From Streptomyces catenulae (GTDB lineage Bacteria > Actinomycetota > Actinomycetes > Streptomycetales > Streptomycetaceae), in NCBI RefSeq assembly GCF_000718015.1, contig NZ_JODY01000036.1, positions 1 through 61,450 of the forward strand: 61,450 bases of DNA. The letters are read 5' to 3'. The position numbers were made by a program, and so were the translations under genes. The notes under the pieces are model-generated. The model was not told the DNA's origin and ran no database searches. It saw only the letters and a list, made by a program, of their open reading frames with translations. Below, piece by piece: positions 31,362-42,280 of the stretch (its first letter is position 1; the number at the start of each line of letters is the position of its first letter).

Positions 31362-31874
31362 GTGAGGACCCCTCCCGGACCACCCGCCGAATCCCCCGAG
31401 GAACTGACCGCGCCCCCTGCCCACCACGGCACCTGGCGCTTCACCGCACCGCTCGACACGGCATCGGTACCCCGGACCCGGCACGCCGTCCGGGACCTGC
31501 TCGCCGAACGGCGGGTGCCCCTCGCCCCCGCCGTCCGCGACGGCCTGCTGCTGATCGTCTCCGAACTCGTCACCAACGCCGTCCGGCACGCCGCCCACTT
31601 CTCCCCGGAGCTGGCGGTCCACCTCGACATCGGCGACGGACGGCTCCGCCTGGCCGTCGCCGATCTGCACCCCTACTGCCCGAAGGCGCTCGAAGCCGAC
31701 GCGGGCGACCTCGGCGGCCGGGGACTGTGGCTGGTCAAGACCGTCACCGCGGAGGCCGGGGGCGCCTGCGGCGTCGCCCCGACCCCCGGCGGCGGCAAGA
31801 TCGTCTGGGTGGAGTTCCCGCTGGCGGCCCGGCCGCCCGCCGGGCCGTCTACCAGCCCGCCGCGGCTCCCGTGA
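31362..31874 (+). CDS. RsbW-like ATP-binding regulatory protein (HATPase_c_2)
   Basis: A 170-residue single-domain GHKL ATPase. The N box is LLLIVSELVTNAVRHAA and the G1/G2 region is DLGGRGLWLVKTV; no membrane, dimerisation or phosphoacceptor domain is present. Streptomyces carry many such proteins, and those studied act as anti-sigma factors or serine kinases of anti-sigma antagonists. No sigma or antagonist gene is adjacent, so the partner is unknown. The GTG start lies 95 bp after the HdeD-like gene. Its 3' end overlaps the convergent idi gene by 26 bp. Confidence 0.82.
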   Translation: MRTPPGPPAESPEELTAPPAHHGTWRFTAPLDTASVPRTRHAVRDLLAERRVPLAPAVRDGLLLIVSELVTNAVRHAAHFSPELAVHLDIGDGRLRLAVADLHPYCPKALEADAGDLGGRGLWLVKTVTAEAGGACGVAPTPGGGKIVWVEFPLAARPPAGPSTSPPRLP

Positions 31875-32460
31875 GCTCCCGCACCGCCGGACGCGCCGCG
31901 TCCAGCACGGTCATGAACCACGCCGAGAACGGCCCCTCGGCGTGCCGCTTCTCCAGCTCCTGCGGCGTCACGAACGCGATCTCGCCGATCTCCGCCGGAT
32001 CCGGCTCCGGGGTCTGCCGCACCAGACCGACGAAGAGGTGGTTGTACTCCTGCTCCACCAGGCCGGAGGCCGGGTCCGGGTGGTTGTAGCGCACCGTGCC
32101 CGCCTCCGCCAGCAGCGACGGCGCGAGCCCCAGCTCCTCCGCGGTACGGCGCGCGGCTGCCGCGAACGGCTTCTCGCCCGGGTACGGATGGCCGCAGCAG
32201 GTGTTGGACCACACGCCGGGGGAGTGGTACTTGCCCAGCGCCCGGCGCTGCAGCAGCAGCCGCCCCTGCTCGTCGAAGAGGAAGACCGAGAACGCGCGGT
32301 GCAGCTGACCGGGGGCCTGATGGGCGGAGAGCTTCTCCGCGGTGCCGATCGTCGTGCCGTCCTCGTCGACCAGCTCCAGCATGATCGGCCCGGCGGCGCC
32401 GTCCGGCGCGGTCACCGCCGCGCGCTCGGCGGTCTGTCCGTTGGCAGGTGTGATCGGCAT
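31849..32460 (-). CDS. idi: Isopentenyl-diphosphate delta-isomerase, type I
   Basis: A 203-residue Nudix-fold isomerase that interconverts isopentenyl and dimethylallyl diphosphates. The type I signatures are HRAFSVFLFDEQGRLLLQRR, YHSPGVWSNTCCGHPYPGE (catalytic Cys in SNTCCGHP), RTAEELGL and VEQEYNHLFVG (catalytic Glu). I place the start at ATG 32460, which has AGGA five bases upstream; a start at 32517 would add an unrelated basic peptide. It sits between the RsbW-like gene and the CDP-alcohol operon, near the hopanoid genes whose precursors it balances. Confidence 0.93.
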   Translation of the reverse strand: MPITPANGQTAERAAVTAPDGAAGPIMLELVDEDGTTIGTAEKLSAHQAPGQLHRAFSVFLFDEQGRLLLQRRALGKYHSPGVWSNTCCGHPYPGEKPFAAAARRTAEELGLAPSLLAEAGTVRYNHPDPASGLVEQEYNHLFVGLVRQTPEPDPAEIGEIAFVTPQELEKRHAEGPFSAWFMTVLDAARPAVRELTGAAAGW

Positions 32461-32985
32461 GCCCATCCTTGTCGTCGGTCTTCGACGCCAAGTCTGCCCC
32501 ACCGCGGTACCCGGCACGGTTCAGGCGGCGCGCGGTGGTGTGCCGGGCGCCGCCTTGCCCGGCGGCTCGTCCGGCTCCGCCCGGCCCGTGAGAAGGTCCA
32601 CACCCCGCGCGCCCCGGCCGGGGACCGGCGCACGCCGCTGACCAGCGCACCTGCGAGGTGGGCCGGAGGTGCCGGACGCGTCACGGATCAACCCGCACCA
32701 CCCGTGACCAGCCCCCGCATAACCGGCGCCGAAACGTGCCGTCGCCCCCGGCGCCAGTTGTTCCGGCACCGCCCGATCCACCATGATGATCGCGGCAGGC
32801 GCAGCGGTCGGTCACCCGATCGTGCGGTGAATCCGCGGTGAACGGCCTCAACCCGCATCCGATAGCCTCTGCCGATGTGCCACCGGCCCCACGGGGCGAG
32901 GTGTGCCGCGCCCACTGCCCGGGTAGTTCGTGCCGAATGCGGACCGGACGGCGCGGCCTTGTCAGCATTCAAGGAGTGAGTTCGT
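32461..32985. other. 525-bp non-coding gap upstream of the CDP-alcohol operon
   Basis: No ORF here has family features. A weak promoter candidate for the downstream operon is GTGAAC (32838-32843), a 19-bp spacer and TAGCCT (32863-32868), which would leave a leader of about 110 nt. The only clear element is the AAGGAG ribosome site at 32971-32976. The length is unusual for this compact region, so an undetected small RNA or long leader is possible. Confidence 0.4.
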
Positions 32986-34800
32986 CTGTCGACCGCCATC
33001 CTCACCGGTCCGCCGGTCGCCGGGTCGCCGCTCGAAGGCGATCTGCGCGCGCTGGGCTTCGACATCCGTACGGCACAGGACCCCGCGTCCGCGGCCGAGC
33101 TGATCGCCGCGGTCCCCGCCCATGAGCGGATCGCCGTCGTGGACCCCCGCTTCGTCGGCCACCGGCACACCCTGCGCCTCGCGCTCACCGACCCCCGCTT
33201 CCCGGCAGCCGCCGTCGAGGGCGCGCTCACCGCGCAGCCCGAGGCCCGCGCCGCGCTGGACCGCGCGGCCGCCCGGATCCCGGTCGGCGCCGGGAGCGCC
33301 CACCTCACCGACGTCCTCACCGGCACCCTGACCGACGCCCTGGACCACGCCGACATCGGCCTGACGCGCATCGAGCCGGGCAGCCTGGTCGCCGCCGTCC
33401 CGCTCACCCCGGCCACCCGCGAGGAGGCCCGGGAGGCCGTCGCCGCGGTCGACGAGGAAGCGGTCCGGCTGCGCAGCGCGGTCAAGTCCCGCGACGGGTT
33501 CTTCACCACCCACTGCATCAGCCCGTACTCCCGCTACCTCGCCCGCTGGTGCGCCCGGCGCGGACTGACCCCGAACCAGGTCACCACCGCCTCGCTGCTC
33601 ACCGCGCTGATCGCGGCGGGCTGCGCCGCCACCGGCACCCGCGGCGGTTTCGTCGCCGCCGGTGTGCTGCTACTCCTCTCCTTCGTCCTGGACTGCACCG
33701 ACGGGCAGCTCGCCCGCTACTCCCTGCAGTACTCGACGATGGGCGCCTGGCTCGACGCCACCTTCGACCGCGCCAAGGAGTACGCCTACTACGCCGGTCT
33801 CGCCCTGGGCGCCGCCCGCGGCGGCGACGACGTCTGGGCGCTGGCGCTCGGCGCGATGATCCTCCAGACCTGCCGCCATGTCGTCGACTTCTCGTTCAAC
33901 GAGGCCAACCACGACGCGACGGCCAACACCAGCCCCACCGCCGCCCTCTCCGACCGGCTCGACAGCGTCGGCTGGACCGTCTGGGCGCGCCGCATGATCG
34001 TGCTGCCGATCGGTGAGCGCTGGGCCCTGATCGCCGTGCTCACCGCCTGCACCACACCCCGCATCGTCTTCTACGTCCTGCTCATCGGCTGCGCGCTGGC
34101 CGCCTGCTACACCACCGCCGGGCGCGTGCTGCGCTCGCTGACCCGCCGGGCCCGGCGCACCGACCGCGCCGCCCGGGCGCTCGCCGACCTCGCCGACACC
34201 GGCGCGCTCGCCGAGCTGATCGCCCGCCCCGTGCGCGGACGCGGCCGCACCGGCTCGTTCCTCGCCCCGGTCATGGCCTTCCTCGCCGCCGCCGTCCTGC
34301 TGGTCGCGGTGGTCTTCGAGGACCGCCCGGCCTCCTGGCTCACCGTCGGTCTGGCCTGCTGCGCCGCGCTGCTCACCGGCGCCGCCGTGGCCCGCCCGCT
34401 CAAGGGCGCCCTCGACTGGCTGGTGCCGCCGTTCCTGCGCGTCGCCGAGTACGTCACGATCCTGGTGCTCGCCGCCCGCAGCGGGGCGCACGGCGCGCTG
34501 CCCGCGGCGTTCGGGCTGGTCGCGGCGGTCGCCTACCATCACTACGACGCGGTCTACCGCATCCGCGGTGGCAGCGGTGCGCCGCCGCGGTGGCTGGTGC
34601 GGGCCGCCGGTGGCAGCGAGGGGCGGATCCTCGTGGTCACCGTCCTCGCCGCCGCGCTGTCCCCCTCCGATTTCCCCCTCGCGCTCGCGGTCCTCGCAGG
34701 CGCGCTGGGCCTGCTGGTGCTCGTCGAGAGCATCCGCTTCTGGGTGCGTGCCGCGAAGACCGGCGCACCCGCCGTACACGATGAAGGAGAACCCGCATGA
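32986..34800 (+). CDS. DUF5941/CDP-alcohol phosphatidyltransferase fusion, apparent CTG start
   Basis: About 604 residues. An N-terminal soluble domain of roughly 170 residues (from STAILTGPPVAGSPLEGDLR) precedes a membrane CDP-alcohol phosphatidyltransferase domain with the complete motif DCTDGQLAR...GAWLDATFD (Asp236 to Asp261), then several further helices. It should transfer a phosphoalcohol from a CDP-alcohol to another alcohol. No ATG, GTG or TTG is in frame between the TGA at 32977 and a GTG inside conserved sequence at 33136-33139. CTG 32986 lies nine bases after AAGGAG and is my choice. It overlaps the next gene in ATGA. Confidence 0.8.
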   Translation: MSTAILTGPPVAGSPLEGDLRALGFDIRTAQDPASAAELIAAVPAHERIAVVDPRFVGHRHTLRLALTDPRFPAAAVEGALTAQPEARAALDRAAARIPVGAGSAHLTDVLTGTLTDALDHADIGLTRIEPGSLVAAVPLTPATREEAREAVAAVDEEAVRLRSAVKSRDGFFTTHCISPYSRYLARWCARRGLTPNQVTTASLLTALIAAGCAATGTRGGFVAAGVLLLLSFVLDCTDGQLARYSLQYSTMGAWLDATFDRAKEYAYYAGLALGAARGGDDVWALALGAMILQTCRHVVDFSFNEANHDATANTSPTAALSDRLDSVGWTVWARRMIVLPIGERWALIAVLTACTTPRIVFYVLLIGCALAACYTTAGRVLRSLTRRARRTDRAARALADLADTGALAELIARPVRGRGRTGSFLAPVMAFLAAAVLLVAVVFEDRPASWLTVGLACCAALLTGAAVARPLKGALDWLVPPFLRVAEYVTILVLAARSGAHGALPAAFGLVAAVAYHHYDAVYRIRGGSGAPPRWLVRAAGGSEGRILVVTVLAAALSPSDFPLALAVLAGALGLLVLVESIRFWVRAAKTGAPAVHDEGEPA

Positions 34801-35534
34801 TCGGCCTCGTGCTGGCCGCCGGCGCCGGACGGCGTCTGCGCCCCTACACCGACACCCTGCCCAAGGCTCTGGTGCCGGTTGATGGGGACACGACGATCCT
34901 GGACCTGACGCTCGGCAACTTCGCCGAGATCGGCCTGACCGAGGTCGCGATCATCGTCGGCTACAAGAAGGAAGCCGTCTACGAGCGCCAGGCCGCCCTG
35001 GAGGCGAAGTACGGCCTCAAGCTGACGCTGATCGACAACGACAAGGCCGAGGAGTGGAACAACGCCTACTCCCTGTGGTGCGGCCGTGACGCCATCAAGC
35101 ACGACGTGATCCTCGCCAACGGCGACACCGTGCACCCGGTCTCCGTCGAGAAGACGCTGCTCGCCGCCCGCGGCAACGGCCAGAAGATCATCCTCGCGCT
35201 GGACACCGTCAAGCAGCTGGCCGACGAGGAGATGAAGGTCGTCGCCGACCCGGCCAAGGGCGTCCAGAAGATCACGAAGCTGATGGACCCGGCCGAGGCG
35301 ACCGGCGAGTACATCGGCGTCACCCTCATCGAGGGCTCCGCCGCCGACGAGCTGGCCGACGCCCTCAAGGCCACCTTCGAGCGCGACCCCGACCTCTACT
35401 ACGAGGACGGCTACCAGGAGCTGGTCAACCGGGGCTTCCAGGTCGACGTGGCCCCCATCGGCGACGTCACGTGGGTCGAGATCGACAACCACGACGACCT
35501 CGCGAAGGGCCGTGAGATCGCATGCCGGTACTGA
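34797..35534 (+). CDS. Nucleotidyltransferase, CTP:phosphoalcohol (LicC/IPCT-like)
   Basis: A 245-residue NTP-transferase fold: GLVLAAGAGRRLRPYTDTLP then KALVPVDG at the N-terminus (nucleotide and metal binding), WNNAYSLWCGRD, VILANGDTVHP (metal Asp) and a C-terminal WVEIDNHDDLAKGREI. The NxYSLW and late EID blocks are like phosphocholine and inositol-1-phosphate cytidylyltransferases. It probably makes a CDP-alcohol for the two adjacent CDP-alcohol transferases. The alcohol phosphate is unknown; glycerol phosphate or a polyol phosphate from the next gene is the natural guess. It is coupled to neighbours by ATGA upstream and a 13-bp overlap downstream. Confidence 0.82.
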   Translation: MIGLVLAAGAGRRLRPYTDTLPKALVPVDGDTTILDLTLGNFAEIGLTEVAIIVGYKKEAVYERQAALEAKYGLKLTLIDNDKAEEWNNAYSLWCGRDAIKHDVILANGDTVHPVSVEKTLLAARGNGQKIILALDTVKQLADEEMKVVADPAKGVQKITKLMDPAEATGEYIGVTLIEGSAADELADALKATFERDPDLYYEDGYQELVNRGFQVDVAPIGDVTWVEIDNHDDLAKGREIACRY

Positions 35535-36583
35535 CCCGCCTCATTCCGTCCCCGGTCGTCGTCGACATCAACGCCGGCGCCCTGGACGACCTGGCGGGCC
35601 TCCTGGCCGATCAGCGCATCTCCGCATCCGGGAAGCTCGCCATCGCCATCTCCGGCGGTTCGGGCGCCCGGCTGCGGGAGCGGCTGTCCCCCGCGCTGCC
35701 CGGCGCGGACTGGTACGAGGTCGGCGGCGGCACGCTCGACGACGCGATCAAGCTCGGCGACGCCATGAAGAAGGGGCACTACGACGCCGTCGTGGGCCTG
35801 GGCGGCGGCAAGATCATCGACTGCGCGAAGTACGCCGCCGCGCGGATCGGCCTGCCGCTGGTCGCCGTCGCGACGAACCTGTCGCACGACGGCCTCTGCT
35901 CGCCGGTCGCCACGCTCGACAACGACGCGGGCCGCGGCTCCTACGGGGTGCCGAACCCGATCGCCGTCGTCATCGACCTCGACATCATCCGCGAGGCGCC
36001 CGTCCGCTTCGTTCGCTCCGGCATCGGTGACGCCATCTCCAACATCTCCGCGGTCGCGGACTGGGAGCTGGCCCACCAGGAGAACGGCGAGGCGATAGAC
36101 GGGCTGGCCGCCGCGATGGCGCGCCAGGCCGGAGAGGCCGTGCTGCGCCACCCCGGTGGCGTCGGTGACGACAACTTCCTCCAGGTGCTGGCCGAGGGCC
36201 TCGTCCTCACCGGCATCTCGATGTCCGTCGCGGGCGACAGCCGGCCGGCCTCGGGGGCCTGCCACGAGATCAACCACGGCTTCGACATCCTCTTCCCCAA
36301 GCGGGCGGCGAGCCACGGCGAGCAGTGCGGCCTCGGCGCCGCCTTCGCCACCCACCTGCGCGGCGACGCGGAGACGTCCGCGCTGATGGTCGAGGCGCTC
36401 CAGCGGCACGGCCTGCCGGTCACGCCGGGCGAGATCGGCTTCACGGACGAGGAGTTCGTCCAGGTCGTCGAGTTCGCCCCGAAGACCCGGCCGGGCCGGT
36501 ACACCATCCTGGAACACCTGGACCTGTCCACCGACGAGATCAGGGACGCATACGCCGACTATGCCAAAACCATCCGTAGCTGA
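35522..36583 (+). CDS. Iron-containing alcohol dehydrogenase family, glycerol-1-phosphate dehydrogenase-like
   Basis: A 353-residue enzyme of the AraM/EgsA/dehydroquinate-synthase-like fold. NAD(P) binding shows as ISGGSGARLRERL and VVGLGGGKIIDCAKYAA; VATNLSHDGLCSPVA resembles the archaeal G1P dehydrogenase block. Likely metal ligands are Asp170 (SGIGDAISN), His248/His252 (GACHEINHGFD) and His265 (AASHGEQCG). The expected reaction is NAD(P)H reduction of dihydroxyacetone phosphate or a related ketose phosphate to a polyol phosphate, feeding the cytidylyltransferase. It overlaps both neighbouring genes (13 and 23 bp). Confidence 0.82.
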   Translation: MPVLTRLIPSPVVVDINAGALDDLAGLLADQRISASGKLAIAISGGSGARLRERLSPALPGADWYEVGGGTLDDAIKLGDAMKKGHYDAVVGLGGGKIIDCAKYAAARIGLPLVAVATNLSHDGLCSPVATLDNDAGRGSYGVPNPIAVVIDLDIIREAPVRFVRSGIGDAISNISAVADWELAHQENGEAIDGLAAAMARQAGEAVLRHPGGVGDDNFLQVLAEGLVLTGISMSVAGDSRPASGACHEINHGFDILFPKRAASHGEQCGLGAAFATHLRGDAETSALMVEALQRHGLPVTPGEIGFTDEEFVQVVEFAPKTRPGRYTILEHLDLSTDEIRDAYADYAKTIRS

Positions 36584-37340
36584 ACTCCGGCCGGTCGTTC
36601 ACCCTCCGGGCGTGAAGGACCGGCGGAGCGGCGAGCACTGGGCCGGTCGGCTCTACATGCGCGAGGTCTCCCTCCGCATCGACCGGCATCTGGTGAACAC
36701 GAAGGTCACGCCCAACCAGCTGACCTACGTGATGACCGTCGCCGGTGCCCTCGCCGCCCCGGCACTGCTGGTGCCGGGGATCTGGGGCGCCGTGCTCGGC
36801 GTGGTGATGGTCCAGCTGTATCTGCTGTTCGACTGCGTCGACGGTGAGATCGCCCGCTGGAAGAAGCAGTACTCGATGTCCGGGGTCTACCTGGACCGCG
36901 TCGCCGCCTATCTGTGCGACGCCGCGGTCCTGGTCGGCTTCGGTCTGCGCGCCGCCGACCTGTGGGGCGGCGGACGCATCGACTGGCTCTGGGCCTTCCT
37001 CGGCACCCTCGCCGCCCTCGGCGCGATCCTGATCAAGGCGGAGACGGACCTGGTCGGCGTGGCCCGGCACCAGCAGGGCATGGCGCCGGTCAAGGAGTCG
37101 GCCGCCGAGCCGCGCTCCTCCGGCATGGCGCTGGCCCGTAAGGCCGCCGCGGCGCTCAAGTTCCACCGGCTGGTCCTCGGCGTCGAGGCGTCCCTGCTGA
37201 TCCTGGCCCTCGCGATCGTGGACTCGGTCCGCGGCGATCTGTTCTTCTCGCGGCTCGGCGTCGCGGTGCTCGCCGGTATCGCGCTGCTCCAGACCGTGCT
37301 CCACCTCGTGTCCATCCTCGCTTCCAGCAGGCTCAAGTGA
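36561..37340 (+). CDS. CDP-alcohol phosphatidyltransferase family protein with altered D4
   Basis: A 259-residue membrane protein with about six helices. The family motif appears as DCVDGEIARWKKQYS then MSGVYLDRVAA. Asp91, Asp94, Gly95, Ala98-Arg99, Gly108 and Asp112 fit the DxxDGxxAR...GxxxDxxxD pattern, but the fourth aspartate, the catalytic base in studied members, is Ala116. It may use another base, work with the larger paralogue at 32986, or have a non-catalytic role. It overlaps the dehydrogenase gene by 23 bp and the glycosyltransferase gene by GTGA, so it belongs to the same transcript. Confidence 0.82.
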   Translation: MPKPSVAELRPVVHPPGVKDRRSGEHWAGRLYMREVSLRIDRHLVNTKVTPNQLTYVMTVAGALAAPALLVPGIWGAVLGVVMVQLYLLFDCVDGEIARWKKQYSMSGVYLDRVAAYLCDAAVLVGFGLRAADLWGGGRIDWLWAFLGTLAALGAILIKAETDLVGVARHQQGMAPVKESAAEPRSSGMALARKAAAALKFHRLVLGVEASLLILALAIVDSVRGDLFFSRLGVAVLAGIALLQTVLHLVSILASSRLK

Positions 37341-38239
37341 CGAAGACCCCTCAGAAGATGACGGTCGGCGCGGTGGTCCTCACCATGGGCAACCGCCCCG
37401 AGGAACTCCGTGCGCTGCTGGACTCGGTCGCCGCGCAGGAGGGCGATCCGGTCGAGGTGGTGGTGGTCGGCAACGGCTCACCCCTGCCCGAGCTGGACGT
37501 CCCGGGGCTCGCGGTGCGCACCGTCGAGCTGCCGGAGAACGTCGGCATCCCGGCGGGCCGCAACGTCGGCATCGAGGCGTTCGGCCCCGGCGGCACCGAC
37601 GTCGACATCCTGCTCTTCCTCGACGACGACGGTCTGCTGGCCCGCAAGGACACCGCCGAGCTGTGCCGTCAGGCGTTCGCCGCGGACGAGAAGCTGGGCA
37701 TCATCAGCTTCCGGATCGCCGACCCGGACACCGGGGAGACCCAGCGCCGCCACGTCCCGCGGCTGCGCGCCTCCGACCCGATGCGCTCCTCGCGGGTGAC
37801 CACCTTCCTCGGCGGCGCCAACGCGGCCCGTACGGCGGTGTTCGCGCAGGTCGGCGGCTTGCCCGACGACTTCTTCTACGCGCACGAGGAGACCGACCTG
37901 GCCTGGCGCGCGCTGGACGCGGGCTGGCTGGTCGACTACCGCGCGGACATGCTGCTGCTCCACCCGACGATGGCGCCGAGCCGGCACGCGGTCTACCACC
38001 GCATGGTGGCCCGTAACCGCGTCTGGCTGGCCCGGCGCAATCTGCCCGCCCCGCTGGTTCCGGTCTACCTCGGTGTCTGGTTCCTGCTGACGCTGGCCCG
38101 GCGCCCTTCCCTTCCGGCGCTGCGCGTCTGGCTGGCCGGTTTCAAGGAGGGCTGGACGACCCCGTGCGGCCCCAGGCGGCCGATGAAGTGGCGTACCGTG
38201 TGGCGCCTGACCCGGCTGGGTCGCCCTCCCGTCATCTGA
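37337..38239 (+). CDS. Family 2 glycosyltransferase
   Basis: A 300-residue GT-A fold protein: GAVVLTMGNRPEELRALLDS opens the nucleotide-sugar domain, followed by VVVGNGSPLPELDVPG, NVGIPAGRNVGIEA, LFLDDDGLLARKD (metal-binding DDD) and FYAHEETDLAWRALD (catalytic ED region). It resembles rhamnosyl- and galactofuranosyl-type GT2 enzymes; donor and acceptor are unknown. A hydrophobic stretch near residue 240 (LVPVYLGVWFLLTLARR) may tether it to the membrane. In this operon it would glycosylate the phosphodiester product before export. Confidence 0.88.
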   Translation: MTKTPQKMTVGAVVLTMGNRPEELRALLDSVAAQEGDPVEVVVVGNGSPLPELDVPGLAVRTVELPENVGIPAGRNVGIEAFGPGGTDVDILLFLDDDGLLARKDTAELCRQAFAADEKLGIISFRIADPDTGETQRRHVPRLRASDPMRSSRVTTFLGGANAARTAVFAQVGGLPDDFFYAHEETDLAWRALDAGWLVDYRADMLLLHPTMAPSRHAVYHRMVARNRVWLARRNLPAPLVPVYLGVWFLLTLARRPSLPALRVWLAGFKEGWTTPCGPRRPMKWRTVWRLTRLGRPPVI

Positions 38240-38309
38240 CAAGCTCAATATCTGAGAGCATCAGGCGCGAACCGGGGCGTGGCCCCGGCAGCGCACCTTG
38301 AGGACGAAA

Positions 38310-39257
38310 GTGTCAACTGTGAGCGAGACCACGCACGACAGTGCGGTCGCCATGAGTGCCCCGCCATCCCCCGACGACGGGCTCACCCCTGCCCAGCTGG
38401 CCCAGAAGTACGGGCTGTCGCAGAGCGGTGCCCGACCCGGCCTGTTCGAATACGTCCGGCAGCTGTGGGACCGGCGCCACTTCATCGCCGCCTTCTCCAG
38501 CGCCAAGCTGACCGCGCAGTACAGCCAGGCGAAGCTGGGCCAGGTCTGGCAGGTGGCGACGCCGCTGCTCAACGCGTTGGTGTACTACTTCATCTTCGGT
38601 CTGCTCATGGGCGGCCGGGGCAAGATGACCAACGACGTCTACATCCCGTTCCTGGTGACCGGTGTCTTCGTCTTCACCTTCACCCAGAGCTCGGCGATGG
38701 CCGGTGTCCGGGCGATCTCCGGCAACCTCGGGCTGGTGCGCGCGCTGCACTTCCCGCGCGCCTCGCTGCCGATCTCGTTCGCACTCCAGCAGCTCCAGCA
38801 ACTGCTGTTCTCGATGATCGTGCTGGTCATCGTGTTGCTCGGGTTCGGTCACTACCCGTCGCTGTCGTGGCTGCTGGTGTTCCCCACGCTCGTACTCCAG
38901 TACGTCTTCAACACCGGTCTGGCCCTGATCATGGCCCGCGCCGGTGCGAAGACCCCGGACCTGGCGCAGCTGCTGCCGTTCATCATGCGGACGTGGATGT
39001 ACGCCTCCGGCGTCATGTACAACCTGACCGAGCAGCTGCGGAACAAGCACGCCGCCGAGTGGCTCATCAACCTTCTGGCGTCGAACCCGGCGTCGGTCTA
39101 CATCGACCTGATGCGGTACTCGCTGCTGGGTCACGGTTTCAACCACAGGGACCTGCCGCCGCACGTCTGGGCGCTGGCCCTCGGCTGGGCGCTGCTCGTC
39201 GGCGCCGCGGGTTTCGTGTACTTCTGGAAGGCTGAGGAGCGTTACGGCCGTGGCTGA
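38310..39257 (+). CDS. ABC transporter permease, polysaccharide/teichoic-acid export type (TagG-like)
   Basis: A 315-residue ABC-2 permease with six helices: a cytoplasmic N-terminus, then SQAKLGQVWQVATPLLNALV and YYFIFGLLMGGRGKM in the ABC2 domain, and PFIMRTWMYASGVMYNLTEQ typical of TagG/RfbA-like exporters. It should move a lipid-linked glycopolymer or glycolipid across the membrane with the ATPase encoded 8 bp inside its 3' end. I choose GTG 38310, six bases after GAGG; TTG 38298 and GTG 38319 are alternatives. It starts 70 bp after the glycosyltransferase. Confidence 0.88.
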   Translation: MSTVSETTHDSAVAMSAPPSPDDGLTPAQLAQKYGLSQSGARPGLFEYVRQLWDRRHFIAAFSSAKLTAQYSQAKLGQVWQVATPLLNALVYYFIFGLLMGGRGKMTNDVYIPFLVTGVFVFTFTQSSAMAGVRAISGNLGLVRALHFPRASLPISFALQQLQQLLFSMIVLVIVLLGFGHYPSLSWLLVFPTLVLQYVFNTGLALIMARAGAKTPDLAQLLPFIMRTWMYASGVMYNLTEQLRNKHAAEWLINLLASNPASVYIDLMRYSLLGHGFNHRDLPPHVWALALGWALLVGAAGFVYFWKAEERYGRG

Positions 39258-40053
39258 GCAGCAGCAGGACACCGGCGCCACCGCGCAGGCGGCCCCGGCC
39301 ACCCGCCCCACCGTGATCGCCGACGATCTGCACATCGTCTACCGCGTCTACGGCGGTGGCGGCAAGGGCAGCGCCACCGCGGCGCTCAACCGGATCATCC
39401 GCCGCAAGCCGGGCGGCAGCGTCCGCGAGGTGCACGCGGTCAAGGGCGTCAATTTCACCGCGTACCGCGGCGAGGCCATCGGGCTGATCGGCTCCAACGG
39501 CTCGGGCAAGTCGACGTTGCTGCGGGCCATCGCCGGTCTCCTCCCGGCGGAGCGCGGCAAGGTCTACACCGACGGCCAGCCGTCGCTGCTGGGTGTGAAC
39601 GCGGCGCTGATGAACGACCTGACCGGCGAGAAGAATGTGGTGCTGGGCGGGCTGGCGATGGGTATGTCCCGCGACCAGGTCCGCGAGCGCTACCAGGGCA
39701 TCGTCGACTTCTCGGGGATCAACGAGAAGGGCGACTTCATCTCGCTGCCGATGCGCACCTACTCGTCCGGTATGGCGGCCCGGCTGCGGTTCTCCATCGC
39801 CGCGGCGAAGGACCACGACGTGCTGATGATCGACGAGGCGCTGGCCACCGGCGACCGCAAGTTCCAGAAGCGCTCCGAGGCCCGCATCCGTGAGCTGCGC
39901 AAGGAGGCCGGTACGGTCTTCCTGGTCAGCCACAACAACAAGTCGATCAGGGACACCTGCGACCGGGTGCTGTGGCTGGAGAAGGGCGAGCTGCTGATGG
40001 ACGGCCCGACCGACGAGGTCATCAAGGCGTACGAGAAGGAGTCGGGCAAGTAG
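39250..40053 (+). CDS. ABC transporter ATP-binding protein (TagH-like)
   Basis: A 267-residue ATPase. Walker A is GLIGSNGSGKSTLLRAI, the signature motif MRTYSSGMAARLRFSIA and Walker B VLMIDEALATGD, with H-loop LVSHNNKSI. The signature YSSGMxARL and DEALATGD are those of polysaccharide/teichoic-acid exporters (TagH, KpsT, RfbE). It overlaps the permease gene by 8 bp and is the last gene before a strong terminator, so permease and ATPase form the exporter of this operon's product. Confidence 0.92.
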   Translation: MAEQQQDTGATAQAAPATRPTVIADDLHIVYRVYGGGGKGSATAALNRIIRRKPGGSVREVHAVKGVNFTAYRGEAIGLIGSNGSGKSTLLRAIAGLLPAERGKVYTDGQPSLLGVNAALMNDLTGEKNVVLGGLAMGMSRDQVRERYQGIVDFSGINEKGDFISLPMRTYSSGMAARLRFSIAAAKDHDVLMIDEALATGDRKFQKRSEARIRELRKEAGTVFLVSHNNKSIRDTCDRVLWLEKGELLMDGPTDEVIKAYEKESGK

Positions 40054-40066
40054 TCCGCCTCCGGCC

Positions 40067-40098
40067 CGGGCCCCCGCGAGACCGTTCGCGGGGGCCCG
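40067..40098 (+). terminator. Terminator of the CDP-alcohol/ABC operon
   Basis: A perfect 13-bp stem (CGGGCCCCCGCGA and its complement) with a 6-nt loop begins 13 bp after the ATPase stop codon. Confidence 0.7.
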
Positions 40099-40362: not shown

Positions 40363-40413
40363 ATGGCTACTGGACCGCTCCGGCTCCGAAACGCGCCGGG
40401 CAGACTTCGGTGA
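40363..40413 (+). CDS. Putative 16-residue leader ORF coupled to hpnC
   Basis: ATG 40363 opens MATGPLRLRNAPGRLR, whose stop TGA (40411-40413) overlaps the hpnC GTG (40410-40412) in the classic GTGA arrangement. A GGGAG motif lies about 11 bases upstream of the ATG, and an in-frame GTG at 40354 is an alternative start. hpnC itself has no clear ribosome site, so ribosomes ending the leader could restart there. No family is recognised; this is a structural inference. Confidence 0.35.
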   Translation: MATGPLRLRNAPGRLR

Positions 40414-41336
40414 GCCGAGAAACGGCCCGGGCCTCCGCAGGCCGGCCGGTGGACGATCCCTCGCGCACCGTCCTCGACCAGGCCGCTCACGAGAACTTCC
40501 CGGTCGCGCCCTTCTTCCTGCCCCGCGCCTGGCGCGGCGACCTCATGGCGGTCTACGGGTACGCCCGTCTGGTCGACGACATCGGCGACGGCGACCTCGC
40601 CCCCGGCGGCGGCGACGCCGTCCTCCTCGGGCTGGAGCGCGAGCAGGCCGACGACCGCTTCGCGCTGCTCGACGCCCTCGAAGCCGACCTGCACCGCGTC
40701 TTCGGCGACCGCGCCCCCGGCCCCCGCCACCCGCTGCTGCGCCGTCTGGGCCCGACCGTCCGCCGCTGCGGACTGACGCCGGAGCCCTTCCTCGGCCTGA
40801 TCGAGGCGAACCGTCAGGACCAGCGGATCTCGCGCTACGCGACCACCGCGGACCTCGACGCGTACTGCGAGCTGTCCGCCAACCCCGTCGGCCGCCTCGT
40901 CCTCGGCATCACCGGCACCACCAGCCCCGAACGCGTCCGGCGCTCCGACGAGATCTGCACCGCGCTGCAGATCGTCGAACACCTCCAGGACGTCGCCGAG
41001 GACCTGGCCCGCGACCGGATCTACCTCCCCGAGGAGAACCGCAAGCGCTTCGGCGTCACCGAGGCCGACCTCGCCGCCCCGCACGCCTCTCCCGCCGTGC
41101 GCGCGCTCATCGCCCACGAGGCGGACCGCGCCACCCGGCTGCTGGACGCCGGAGCCCCGCTGGTGGGCAGCGTCCACGGCCGGCTGCGGCTGCTGCTGGC
41201 CGGTTTCGTCGGCGGCGGGCGCGCCGCCCTGCAGGCCGTCGCCGACGCCGGCCACGACGTACTCCCCGGACCGCCCAAGCCGACCAAGCTCAGCCTGCTG
41301 CGCGCGGTGGGGGCGACATTGCGAAGAGAGGGGTGA
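40410..41336 (+). CDS. hpnC: Squalene synthase HpnC (hydroxysqualene synthase type)
   Basis: A 308-residue head-to-head prenyl synthase of the trans-isoprenyl diphosphate synthase fold. The two aspartate-rich regions are YARLVDDIGDGD (Asp56-Asp60) and LQDVAEDLARDRIYLPEE, with FLPRAWRGDLMAVY upstream. In the HpnCDE route HpnC converts presqualene diphosphate to hydroxysqualene. GTG 40410 is the first possible start in this frame and abuts a small leader ORF. It overlaps hpnD by GTGA, so the two are translated together. Confidence 0.92.
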   Translation: MSRETARASAGRPVDDPSRTVLDQAAHENFPVAPFFLPRAWRGDLMAVYGYARLVDDIGDGDLAPGGGDAVLLGLEREQADDRFALLDALEADLHRVFGDRAPGPRHPLLRRLGPTVRRCGLTPEPFLGLIEANRQDQRISRYATTADLDAYCELSANPVGRLVLGITGTTSPERVRRSDEICTALQIVEHLQDVAEDLARDRIYLPEENRKRFGVTEADLAAPHASPAVRALIAHEADRATRLLDAGAPLVGSVHGRLRLLLAGFVGGGRAALQAVADAGHDVLPGPPKPTKLSLLRAVGATLRREG

Positions 41337-42280
41337 GTCGGACCGTGGAGGAAACCGCACAGCCAGCCGCGCCGGTGCTCGCCGCATACCGCTACTGCGA
41401 GGCCGTCACCGGGCACCAGGCCCGGAACTTCGCCTACGGCATCCGGCTGCTGCCCGCCGCCAAGCGGCAGGCCATGTCGGCGCTGTACGCCTTCTCCCGC
41501 CGCGTCGACGACATCGGCGACGGCGCCCTGGAGCCGGAGGCCAAGCGCGTCCGGCTGGAGAACACCCGGGCGCTGCTGGGCCGGATCAAGGACGGCGAGA
41601 TCGAGGAGGACGACACCGACCCGGTCGCCGTCGCCCTCGCCGACGCCGCCCGGCGCTTCCCGCTGCCCCTGGTCGGCCTCGACGAGCTGATCGACGGCGT
41701 CCTGATGGACGTCCGCGGCGAGACCTACCGCACCTGGGACGAGCTGAAGCTCTACTGCCGCTGCGTCGCCGGGGCCATCGGTCGGCTCTCGCTCGGCGTG
41801 TTCGGCACGGTGCCCGGCGCACCGGACGCCGCGCGCGCCCCCGAGTACGCCGACACCCTCGGCCTCGCGCTGCAGCTCACCAACATCCTGCGCGACGTCC
41901 GCGAGGACGCCGCCAACGGCCGCACCTACCTGCCCGCCGAGGACCTCGCGAAGTTCGGCTGCTCGGCCGGGTTCGACGCGCCGGTCCCGCCGCCCGGCGC
42001 GGACTTCGCCGGTCTGGTGCACTTCGAGGCCACCCGCGCCCGCGCGCTCTTCGCCGAGGGCTTCCGGCTGCTGCCGATGCTGGACCGCCGCAGCGGCGCC
42101 TGCGTCGCGGCGATGGCCGGGATCTACCACCGGCTGCTGACCCGGATCGCCGACGACCCGGAGGCCGTGCTCCGCGGCCGGGTGTCGCTGCCGGGCCGGG
42201 AGAAGGCGTTCGTCGCGGTGCGCGGTCTGTCCGGTCTGGACGCCCGCGCGGCGGGCCGCCGCACCGCCGGGAGGCGCTGA
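41333..42280 (+). CDS. hpnD: Presqualene diphosphate synthase HpnD
   Basis: A 315-residue paralogue of HpnC. It shows NFAYGIRLLPAAKRQAMSA, the first Asp motif FSRRVDDIGDG (Asp59-Asp63), and LQLTNILRDVREDAANGR as the second. HpnD condenses two farnesyl diphosphates to presqualene diphosphate. The shorter spacing and RxxDD form of the first motif distinguish it from HpnC. Its stop overlaps the ATG of a 41-codon ORF (TGATG), and GGGAGG near its end serves as that ORF's ribosome site. Confidence 0.92.
   Translation: MSRTVEETAQPAAPVLAAYRYCEAVTGHQARNFAYGIRLLPAAKRQAMSALYAFSRRVDDIGDGALEPEAKRVRLENTRALLGRIKDGEIEEDDTDPVAVALADAARRFPLPLVGLDELIDGVLMDVRGETYRTWDELKLYCRCVAGAIGRLSLGVFGTVPGAPDAARAPEYADTLGLALQLTNILRDVREDAANGRTYLPAEDLAKFGCSAGFDAPVPPPGADFAGLVHFEATRARALFAEGFRLLPMLDRRSGACVAAMAGIYHRLLTRIADDPEAVLRGRVSLPGREKAFVAVRGLSGLDARAAGRRTAGRR

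Follow-up and report, generated by a model that had tools for sequence, protein, structure and literature searches.

A Seven-Gene Streptomyces Operon as a Possible Supply Line for CDP-glycerol in Teichoic-Acid-Type Synthesis

Introduction

From where do Streptomyces cells obtain the CDP-glycerol for their TagF polymerases when no recognisable TagD is found in the genus? This question is raised by the present searches, and an operon in a stretch of DNA from Streptomyces catenulae may give part of the answer. The stretch, called the window below, is contig NZ_JODY01000036.1 (61,450 nucleotides; C36 in our numbering) of a 7.0-Mb genome, and the operon at positions 32986-40053 consists of seven co-directional open reading frames (ORFs), all on the forward strand. 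They code for a fused CDP-alcohol phosphotransferase (CAPT1-DUF5941), a small nucleotidyltransferase (NT), a dehydrogenase similar to sn-glycerol-1-phosphate dehydrogenases (G1PDH-like), a second protein of the CDP-alcohol phosphotransferase family (CAPT2), a GT2 glycosyltransferase, and the permease and ATPase of an exporter. We propose, with evenly balanced confidence, that the operon is devoted to supplying and assembling a surface molecule of teichoic-acid type that contains glycerophosphate.

The lipoteichoic acid (LTA) of Streptomyces is described as a polyglycerolphosphate, with no clear LtaS, and the same paper of 2011 named actinobacterial LTA synthesis in the absence of an evident LtaS as an open question (PMC3196553). 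In Bacillus subtilis LTA is sn-1 and wall teichoic acid sn-3, and the enzyme GlpQ acts specifically on sn-glycerol-3-phosphate (PMC7086022). CDP-1-glycerol has been described as likely absent in bacteria (PMC8262930). A tagO gene is reported for S. coelicolor (PMC7300013) and an alignment published in 2016 included a G1PDH homologue from Streptomyces (PMC5059525). The titles and partial texts searched contained no characterised product of the operon, and a literature search for DUF5941 found no paper.

If the proposal is correct, a genus-wide operon giving CDP-glycerol without TagD, by what is perhaps a mirror-image route, would settle part of the LTA and TagF questions, DUF5941 would gain a role, and sn-glycerol-1-phosphate, the mirror-image form used by archaea, would be an everyday component in a large genus of bacteria. 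The operon may thus explain teichoic-acid-type surface polymers made without the usual activating enzyme, and it offers specific genes to delete and enzymes to assay in the genus that is the chief producer of antibiotics.

The Proposed Pathway

The pathway would start with the dehydrogenase, which would convert dihydroxyacetone phosphate to sn-glycerol-1-phosphate. The NT would join this to CTP to give CDP-1-glycerol, from which CAPT1-DUF5941 would transfer glycerol-1-phosphate to a lipid, either diacylglycerol or a glycolipid, in a reaction like that of the Kennedy pathway. CAPT2 would assist or perform a second transfer, the GT2 protein would add a sugar, and the TagGH-like exporter would move out the product, which would act as, or prime, polyglycerolphosphate. 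The TagF polymerases encoded elsewhere in the genome would draw on this CDP-glycerol too, in place of that from the missing TagD. Substrates, stereochemistry, lipid acceptor, order of steps and product are throughout what we infer. The near-invariant reductase-NT pair, a CPT1-like transferase, a GT2 protein, a TagGH-like exporter and TagF without a recognisable TagD make CDP-glycerol for a teichoic-acid-type product the simplest account, and the CDP-glycerol made is probably CDP-1-glycerol.

The first-pass annotation of the window had read the genes as a route from ketose phosphate to polyol phosphate, CDP-polyol and a phosphodiester-linked product that is glycosylated and exported, and the sequence comparisons support this logic. 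It had also set the operon apart from teichoic acid synthesis. That part we abandon in view of the linkage to TagF, IspD-SDR and LCP genes in some relatives, of an exporter which is a close paralogue of the one at the genome's own TagF locus, and of the 194 genus genomes in none of which TagD was found.

The Nucleotidyltransferase and the Dehydrogenase

The NT gene (34797..35534) codes for a protein that is nearest, by sequence and by the fold of a predicted model, to the CTP enzymes PntC, IPCT and LicC, in agreement with its earlier description as LicC/IPCT-like. The dehydrogenase (35522..36583) belongs to the iron-dependent alcohol dehydrogenase family, and its closest characterised relatives are G1PDHs (PRK00843 and PDB matches), again as first described. 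We call it G1PDH-like because it scores 234.5 bits with the NCBIfam model PRK00843, the equivalog cut-off of which is 413. Residues D164, H242 and H258 (numbering of the sequence that heads alignment A1) do not vary in 7/7 sequences and align with the Asp, His and His of archaeal G1PDH; we take them to be the metal-site positions.

The two genes belong together far outside the window. A scan of named genomes was made with the G1PDH alignment, the first sequence of which comes from an NT-bearing locus, and the best 80 of at least 544 confirmed loci were used; by record title these are 14 from Streptomycetaceae, 52 from Micromonosporaceae and 14 others. NT lies directly upstream of the dehydrogenase in 79 of the 80 (the exception is L124), and it adjoins it in eight of 12 further, more distant regions (L140, L143-L147, L149, L150). 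The earlier idea of sn-glycerol-1-phosphate stereochemistry is strengthened, at the level of sequence, by this near-invariant pairing and by the likeness of the dehydrogenase to G1PDHs. In three of the distant regions (L146, L147, L150) the pair lies near phosphodiesterase-like genes (the L146 copy matches PF01663) and sugar-transferase-like genes.

The same module could supply another activated polyol, be it CDP-2-glycerol, sn-3 CDP-glycerol or a CDP-tetritol or CDP-pentitol, to a teichoic-acid-type polymer. The substrate of the dehydrogenase is predicted from sequence, with a score below the equivalog cut-off, and pneumococcal capsule synthesis uses a reductase and a cytidylyltransferase to reach CDP-2-glycerol. 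We regard such a substrate as possible, if rather doubtful, given that the closest characterised relatives of the dehydrogenase are G1PDHs and that the operon contains no kinase. A CDP-ribitol-synthase-like IspD-SDR gene is moreover found besides the NT-G1PDH pair in L089 and L118, and a similar gene in L154, so a second source of CDP-ribitol would be redundant there.

A second copy of the operon was searched for in the genome and not found; G1PDH and DUF5941 gave one match each. Another member of the genus (G334) has a second G1PDH copy (L139:15379-16449), which other genes and a distance of about 5.6 kb separate from two TagF genes; as no NT lies beside it we give it little weight. G1PDH hits on plasmids, among them one from Priestia, were also set aside: in the two examined outside the actinobacteria (one of three Nitratidesulfovibrio records, and Cytobacillus) no NT, TagF or CDP-alcohol gene is annotated nearby.

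The CDP-alcohol Phosphotransferases

CAPT1-DUF5941 (32986..34800; Pfam PF01066 and PF19365) has a degenerate nucleotidyltransferase domain (residues ~1-156), a CDP-alcohol phosphotransferase core (~168-390) and DUF5941 (393-604). All four Asp of the motif D-x2-DG-x2-AR-x8-G-x3-D-x3-D are present in 35/35 distinct motif matches. In the predicted model (pLDDT 88.8) the core and DUF5941 resemble the eukaryotic enzymes CPT1/CEPT1, with the C-terminal helices in the CPT1 arrangement. The fusion noted in the first-pass annotation is real and can be stated more specifically: a degenerate nucleotidyltransferase followed by two parts which together are predicted to be CPT1/CEPT1-like. CAPT2 (36561..37340) passes the PF01066 cut-off, which upholds its place in the family, and has Ala for the fourth Asp of the motif.

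The likeness of CAPT1, CAPT2 and NT to the IPCT-DIPPS family could point to a compatible solute resembling di-inositol phosphate or glycerophosphoinositol. With 47.5-52.1 bits against a cut-off of 580 (NF041135), a GT2 protein and an exporter that do not fit, and a DUF5941 that brings in a CPT1-like part, we find this highly improbable. On contig C1 of the genome the gene for another CDP-alcohol transferase is followed by an acyltransferase-like ORF, a layout found at phosphatidylinositol-phosphate (PIP) synthase loci.

The Exporter and Linkage to TagF

The operon continues with the GT2 gene (37337..38239; PF00535), the TagG/Wzm-like ABC-2 permease (38298..39257; PF01061) and the TagH/Wzt-like ATPase (39250..40053). 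The ATPase scores 173.5 bits with NCBIfam TagH, below the cut-off of 320, and is 84% identical over 244 residues to an ATPase on contig C34 of the same genome; the permeases of the two places are 57% identical. The C34 pair lies beside three full-length GT2-TagF fusion genes. The Pfam matches agree with the first assignment of a GT2 protein and a TagGH-like exporter to the operon. It had been noted that TagF is missing. This is true of the seven operon proteins, in which no PF04464 match was found, and untrue of the genome, which has the three fusion genes on C34 and a weak fourth match (~40 bits) on contig C11. The C34 locus is the probable main teichoic acid locus of the genome; the stretch L052:10681-12484 there holds the second TagGH-like exporter, beside which lie the three GT2-TagF genes as well as genes for a GT4 protein and an epimerase like GalE.

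In some relatives the module itself lies among teichoic acid genes. Full-length TagF is found near it in L048, L087 and L144; L050 has TagF close to CAPT1-DUF5941, there with no NT-G1PDH pair. Conexibacter sp. SYSU D00693 has a dehydrogenase identical to that of L144. In Herbidospora (L089) a series with a few other ORFs between runs LCP, partial TagF-like, IspD-SDR, CAPT1, DUF5941, NT, G1PDH, CAPT2, GT2, LCP, and tblastn finds the same series in Nonomuraea (L154). L118 has NT-G1PDH with a partial TagF-like gene and IspD-SDR. The TagF-like PF04464 matches in L089 (40.7 bits) and L118 (37.2 bits) are partial only; IspD-SDR is confirmed by Pfam in these two loci and found by tblastn in L106 and L154. 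The SDR half alone probably accounts for the TarIJ tblastn matches in two Micromonosporaceae loci and in L124 (26%), which were not counted as support. A glycerophosphodiester phosphodiesterase gene adjoins TagF-NT-G1PDH in L144 and NT-G1PDH in L145.

This linkage bears on the idea that the product is a polar phospholipid or glycophospholipid in its own right, such as a phosphatidylglycerol-like lipid carrying a sugar, which has no link to a polymer and is flipped by the exporter. Such a lipid would suit the modelled CPT1/CEPT1-like fold, the lack of a polymerase in the operon and the Micromonosporaceae, where NT-G1PDH-CAPT is kept in 52/52 loci and TagF was found in 0/52 of the fetched stretches. 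What speaks against it is that some relatives have the module linked to TagF, LCP and TagGH, and that the ATPase is nearly related to that of the TagF locus; we consider it unlikely.

TagF without a Recognisable TagD

No candidate for TagD (TIGR01518) turned up in this genome, and 0/194 Streptomyces genomes gave a match at 1e-22; the dehydrogenase subfamily is present in 194/194 of the Streptomyces genomes sampled. TagD-family proteins of 58-69 bits occur in some Streptomyces (G407, G405, G400, G402 and others).

Co-occurrence was counted in 396 genomes of the phylum, with thresholds chosen after the scores had been seen (G1PDH at least 450 bits, TagF E at most 1e-20, TagD at least 95 bits). 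G1PDH was positive in 21 genomes, TagF in 33 and TagD in 16. TagF is present in 16/21 genomes with G1PDH and in 17/375 of the others; leaving out Streptomyces the numbers are 4/9 and 17/375 (p 7e-4), and counted by genus 5/8 and 13/228 (p 7e-5). Among the 18 genera with TagF, six have TagD, seven a relative of G1PDH (in two of these a distant form alone, 245-247 bits) and none has both (p 0.038). All three p values ignore shared descent.

A further and tentative extension is that Streptomyces makes a lipid-anchored polyglycerolphosphate by a Kennedy-type route, in which a CPT1/CEPT1-like enzyme would put CDP-1-glycerol straight onto a glycerolipid and so build an sn-1 LTA without phosphatidylglycerol or LtaS. 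CDP-1-glycerol would in that case be a universal metabolite of the genus.

A number of observations weigh against CDP-1-glycerol supply for a teichoic-acid-type product. LTA was reportedly not detected in S. verticillus (PMC3196553). The dehydrogenase score lies below its equivalog cut-off, as given above, and Foldseek places AF2299 above CPT1 for the CAPT1-DUF5941 model. The fourth motif Asp is absent from CAPT2 in 35/35 distinct matches (Ala 24, His 11), which makes a second transfer doubtful and takes something from the first-pass description of a second transferase. The 80 loci were chosen by likeness to the dehydrogenase of an NT-bearing locus, and NT is not beside G1PDH in four of the 12 further regions (L139, L141, L142 on a 4.3-kb contig, and L148). 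To this comes the absence of TagF from the Micromonosporaceae stretches. Weak TagD-family matches of 31-69 bits were seen in 7/13 genomes of the genus at E 1e-3 (cut-off 165), and matches of 63-66 bits in 4/12 at 1e-15; some of these weak matches cover nearly the whole model. A diverged TagD is therefore conceivable in the genus genomes with such matches; none was seen in this genome. TagF may use another CDP-polyol, and 5/18 genera with TagF have neither TagD nor G1PDH. The exclusivity of TagD and G1PDH is not significant over the 396 genomes (0/21 against 16/375, p 1.0), and co-occurrence is confounded by descent, 12 of the 21 positive genomes being from one genus.

Operon Structure, Distribution and Neighbours

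The seven co-directional genes are overlapping or tightly spaced, as first described, and the junctions were measured. The overlaps are 4 nucleotides for CAPT1/NT (34797/34800), 13 for NT/G1PDH (35522/35534), 23 for G1PDH/CAPT2 (36561/36583), 4 for CAPT2/GT2 (37337/37340) and 8 for permease/ATPase (39250/39257); from the GT2 end at 38239 to the permease start at 38298 there is a 58-nucleotide gap, with an alternative permease start at 38319. The start at 32986 holds up: it is a CTG preceded by AAGGAG, and two codons ahead of it stands a TGA in the same frame. The standard ORF list begins CAPT1 later, at 33139. Among 20 distinct loci (of 32) with a recognisable N-terminus 14 use CTG and six use TTG as start codon, none ATG or GTG, and the public annotation of S. 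fungicidicus begins at the TTG.

A long GC-rich hairpin follows the last gene at 40068..40097 (forward strand; 13 pairs and a 4-base loop, limits from the predicted fold), and the 101-nucleotide fold downstream of 40053 has -65.5 kcal/mol and a z of -3.73. Of the "strong terminator" first noted here the hairpin stands; it has no T-run and a terminator scan found 0.

Conservation of the seven-gene order across Streptomyces, a point raised with the first-pass annotation, was found in 11/11 other loci of the genus in a phylum-wide sample. Among the 80 best loci, which span Solirubrobacterales, Micromonosporaceae, Nocardioidaceae, Streptosporangiaceae, Nitriliruptorales, Frankiales-type metagenome-assembled genomes and Streptomycetaceae, a CAPT lies within 4 kb of G1PDH in 70. 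CAPT1, DUF5941, NT, CAPT2, GT2 and the ABC pair are all present in 14/14 Streptomycetaceae; L128, which begins at a contig end, lacks only the N-terminal piece of CAPT1. The 52 Micromonosporaceae loci all have NT and none has DUF5941; in each the gene after NT-G1PDH codes for a CDP-alcohol phosphotransferase of a third type (for example L066:10043-10750), and sugar-transferase and GT4 matches occur in this family. The other groups have NT in 13/14 and DUF5941 in 7/14. Five of eight DUF5941 loci outside the genus (L043, L044, L046, L047, L048) combine CAPT1 with NT-G1PDH-CAPT2-GT2, and in L045, L049 and L050 G1PDH is not in the fetched stretch. Some labels denote the same contigs (L039 and L135; L044 and L086), and L049 and L141 overlap on one contig. 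Outside Streptomyces, sulfotransferase-like genes lie near the module in L043 (by Pfam), L044, L045 and L048, and the product there is possibly sulfated.

The neighbours in the window are not counted as parts of the operon. Upstream lies a divergent idi gene for an isopentenyl-diphosphate (IPP) isomerase-like protein (31849..32517, reverse strand), and downstream hpnC- and hpnD-like genes of squalene/hopanoid synthesis (40410..42280, forward strand). An idi gene is beside the operon in all but L128 of 27 Streptomycetaceae loci (26/27, a set in which one contig occurs twice), and in the same set a divergent GalE gene (for example L153:3188-4159) and an adjoining cation-diffusion facilitator are each found in 19/27. 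The divergent GalE may hint at a galactose substituent; no GalE is beside the operon in the window. One report lists sco6750 of S. coelicolor, a putative IPP isomerase, as a sigma-E target (PMC6767563). It is likely the counterpart of the idi gene which diverges from the operon here, and the region 31849-32985 could thus be under envelope-stress control.

The place between idi and hpnC-hpnD could also mean that the operon serves hopanoid or isoprenoid lipids, the more so as hpnC/hpnD are near it in 13/14 Streptomycetaceae loci and, in the phylum-wide sample, in 10/11 loci of the genus (not in L035), and an idi-like ORF lies about 4 kb upstream in L043. HpnC/HpnD are however found in 0/66 loci outside Streptomycetaceae and in none of L043-L050, the core genes being common to both, and in the window the long hairpin lies between the operon and the hpn genes. 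The hpn neighbours are a Streptomycetaceae feature and are therefore not taken as functional partners, which leaves this explanation with very little probability.

Comparison with Known Systems

With the wall teichoic acid system of B. subtilis (TagD, TagF, TagGH) the operon shares the logic of a CDP-polyol donor and a TagGH-like exporter, and the likeness extends to TagF elsewhere in the genome and to TagF and LCP beside the module in some relatives. It differs by having CDP-alcohol phosphotransferases, a reductase with a LicC-like enzyme, no polymerase and no recognisable TagD (0/194). CDP-ribitol synthesis by TarI-TarJ or IspD-SDR has in common with it a paired cytidylyltransferase and ketose-phosphate reductase, but the reductase of the fusions is an SDR and that of the operon an iron-dependent alcohol dehydrogenase; both kinds coexist in L089 and L118.

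CAPT1-DUF5941 differs from the choline/ethanolamine phosphotransferases CPT1/CEPT1 in being bacterial, with 10-13% identity, and several relatives of the operon encode DUF5941 in an ORF of its own. IPCT-DIPPS, AF2299 and the phosphatidylinositol-phosphate synthases share with CAPT1 a nucleotidyltransferase-like domain joined to a CDP-alcohol phosphotransferase core, whereas the operon is far from the curated cut-offs and has the extra DUF5941 and the linkage to glycan genes and an exporter. AraM/EgsA G1PDHs, which work with PcrB or GGGPS for ether lipids, are of the same dehydrogenase family with the same conserved Asp and His. The partner here is a nucleotidyltransferase, and an ether-lipid reading was dropped when the genome search for PcrB/GGGPS came back empty (the control matched in 7/14 genomes).

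Closest of all is a conserved syntenic region of Streptomyces described in 2026, with crtB, tagG, tagH, araM, a CDP-alcohol phosphatidyltransferase, GT2 and a sugar-phosphate nucleotidyltransferase (PMC13118837). It matches the operon by its annotated genes and is linked there to teichoic acid biosynthesis, with no pathway proposal in the part of the text available. Relative to that part, the absence of TagD, the glycerol-1-phosphate logic and the fold analysis are new here.

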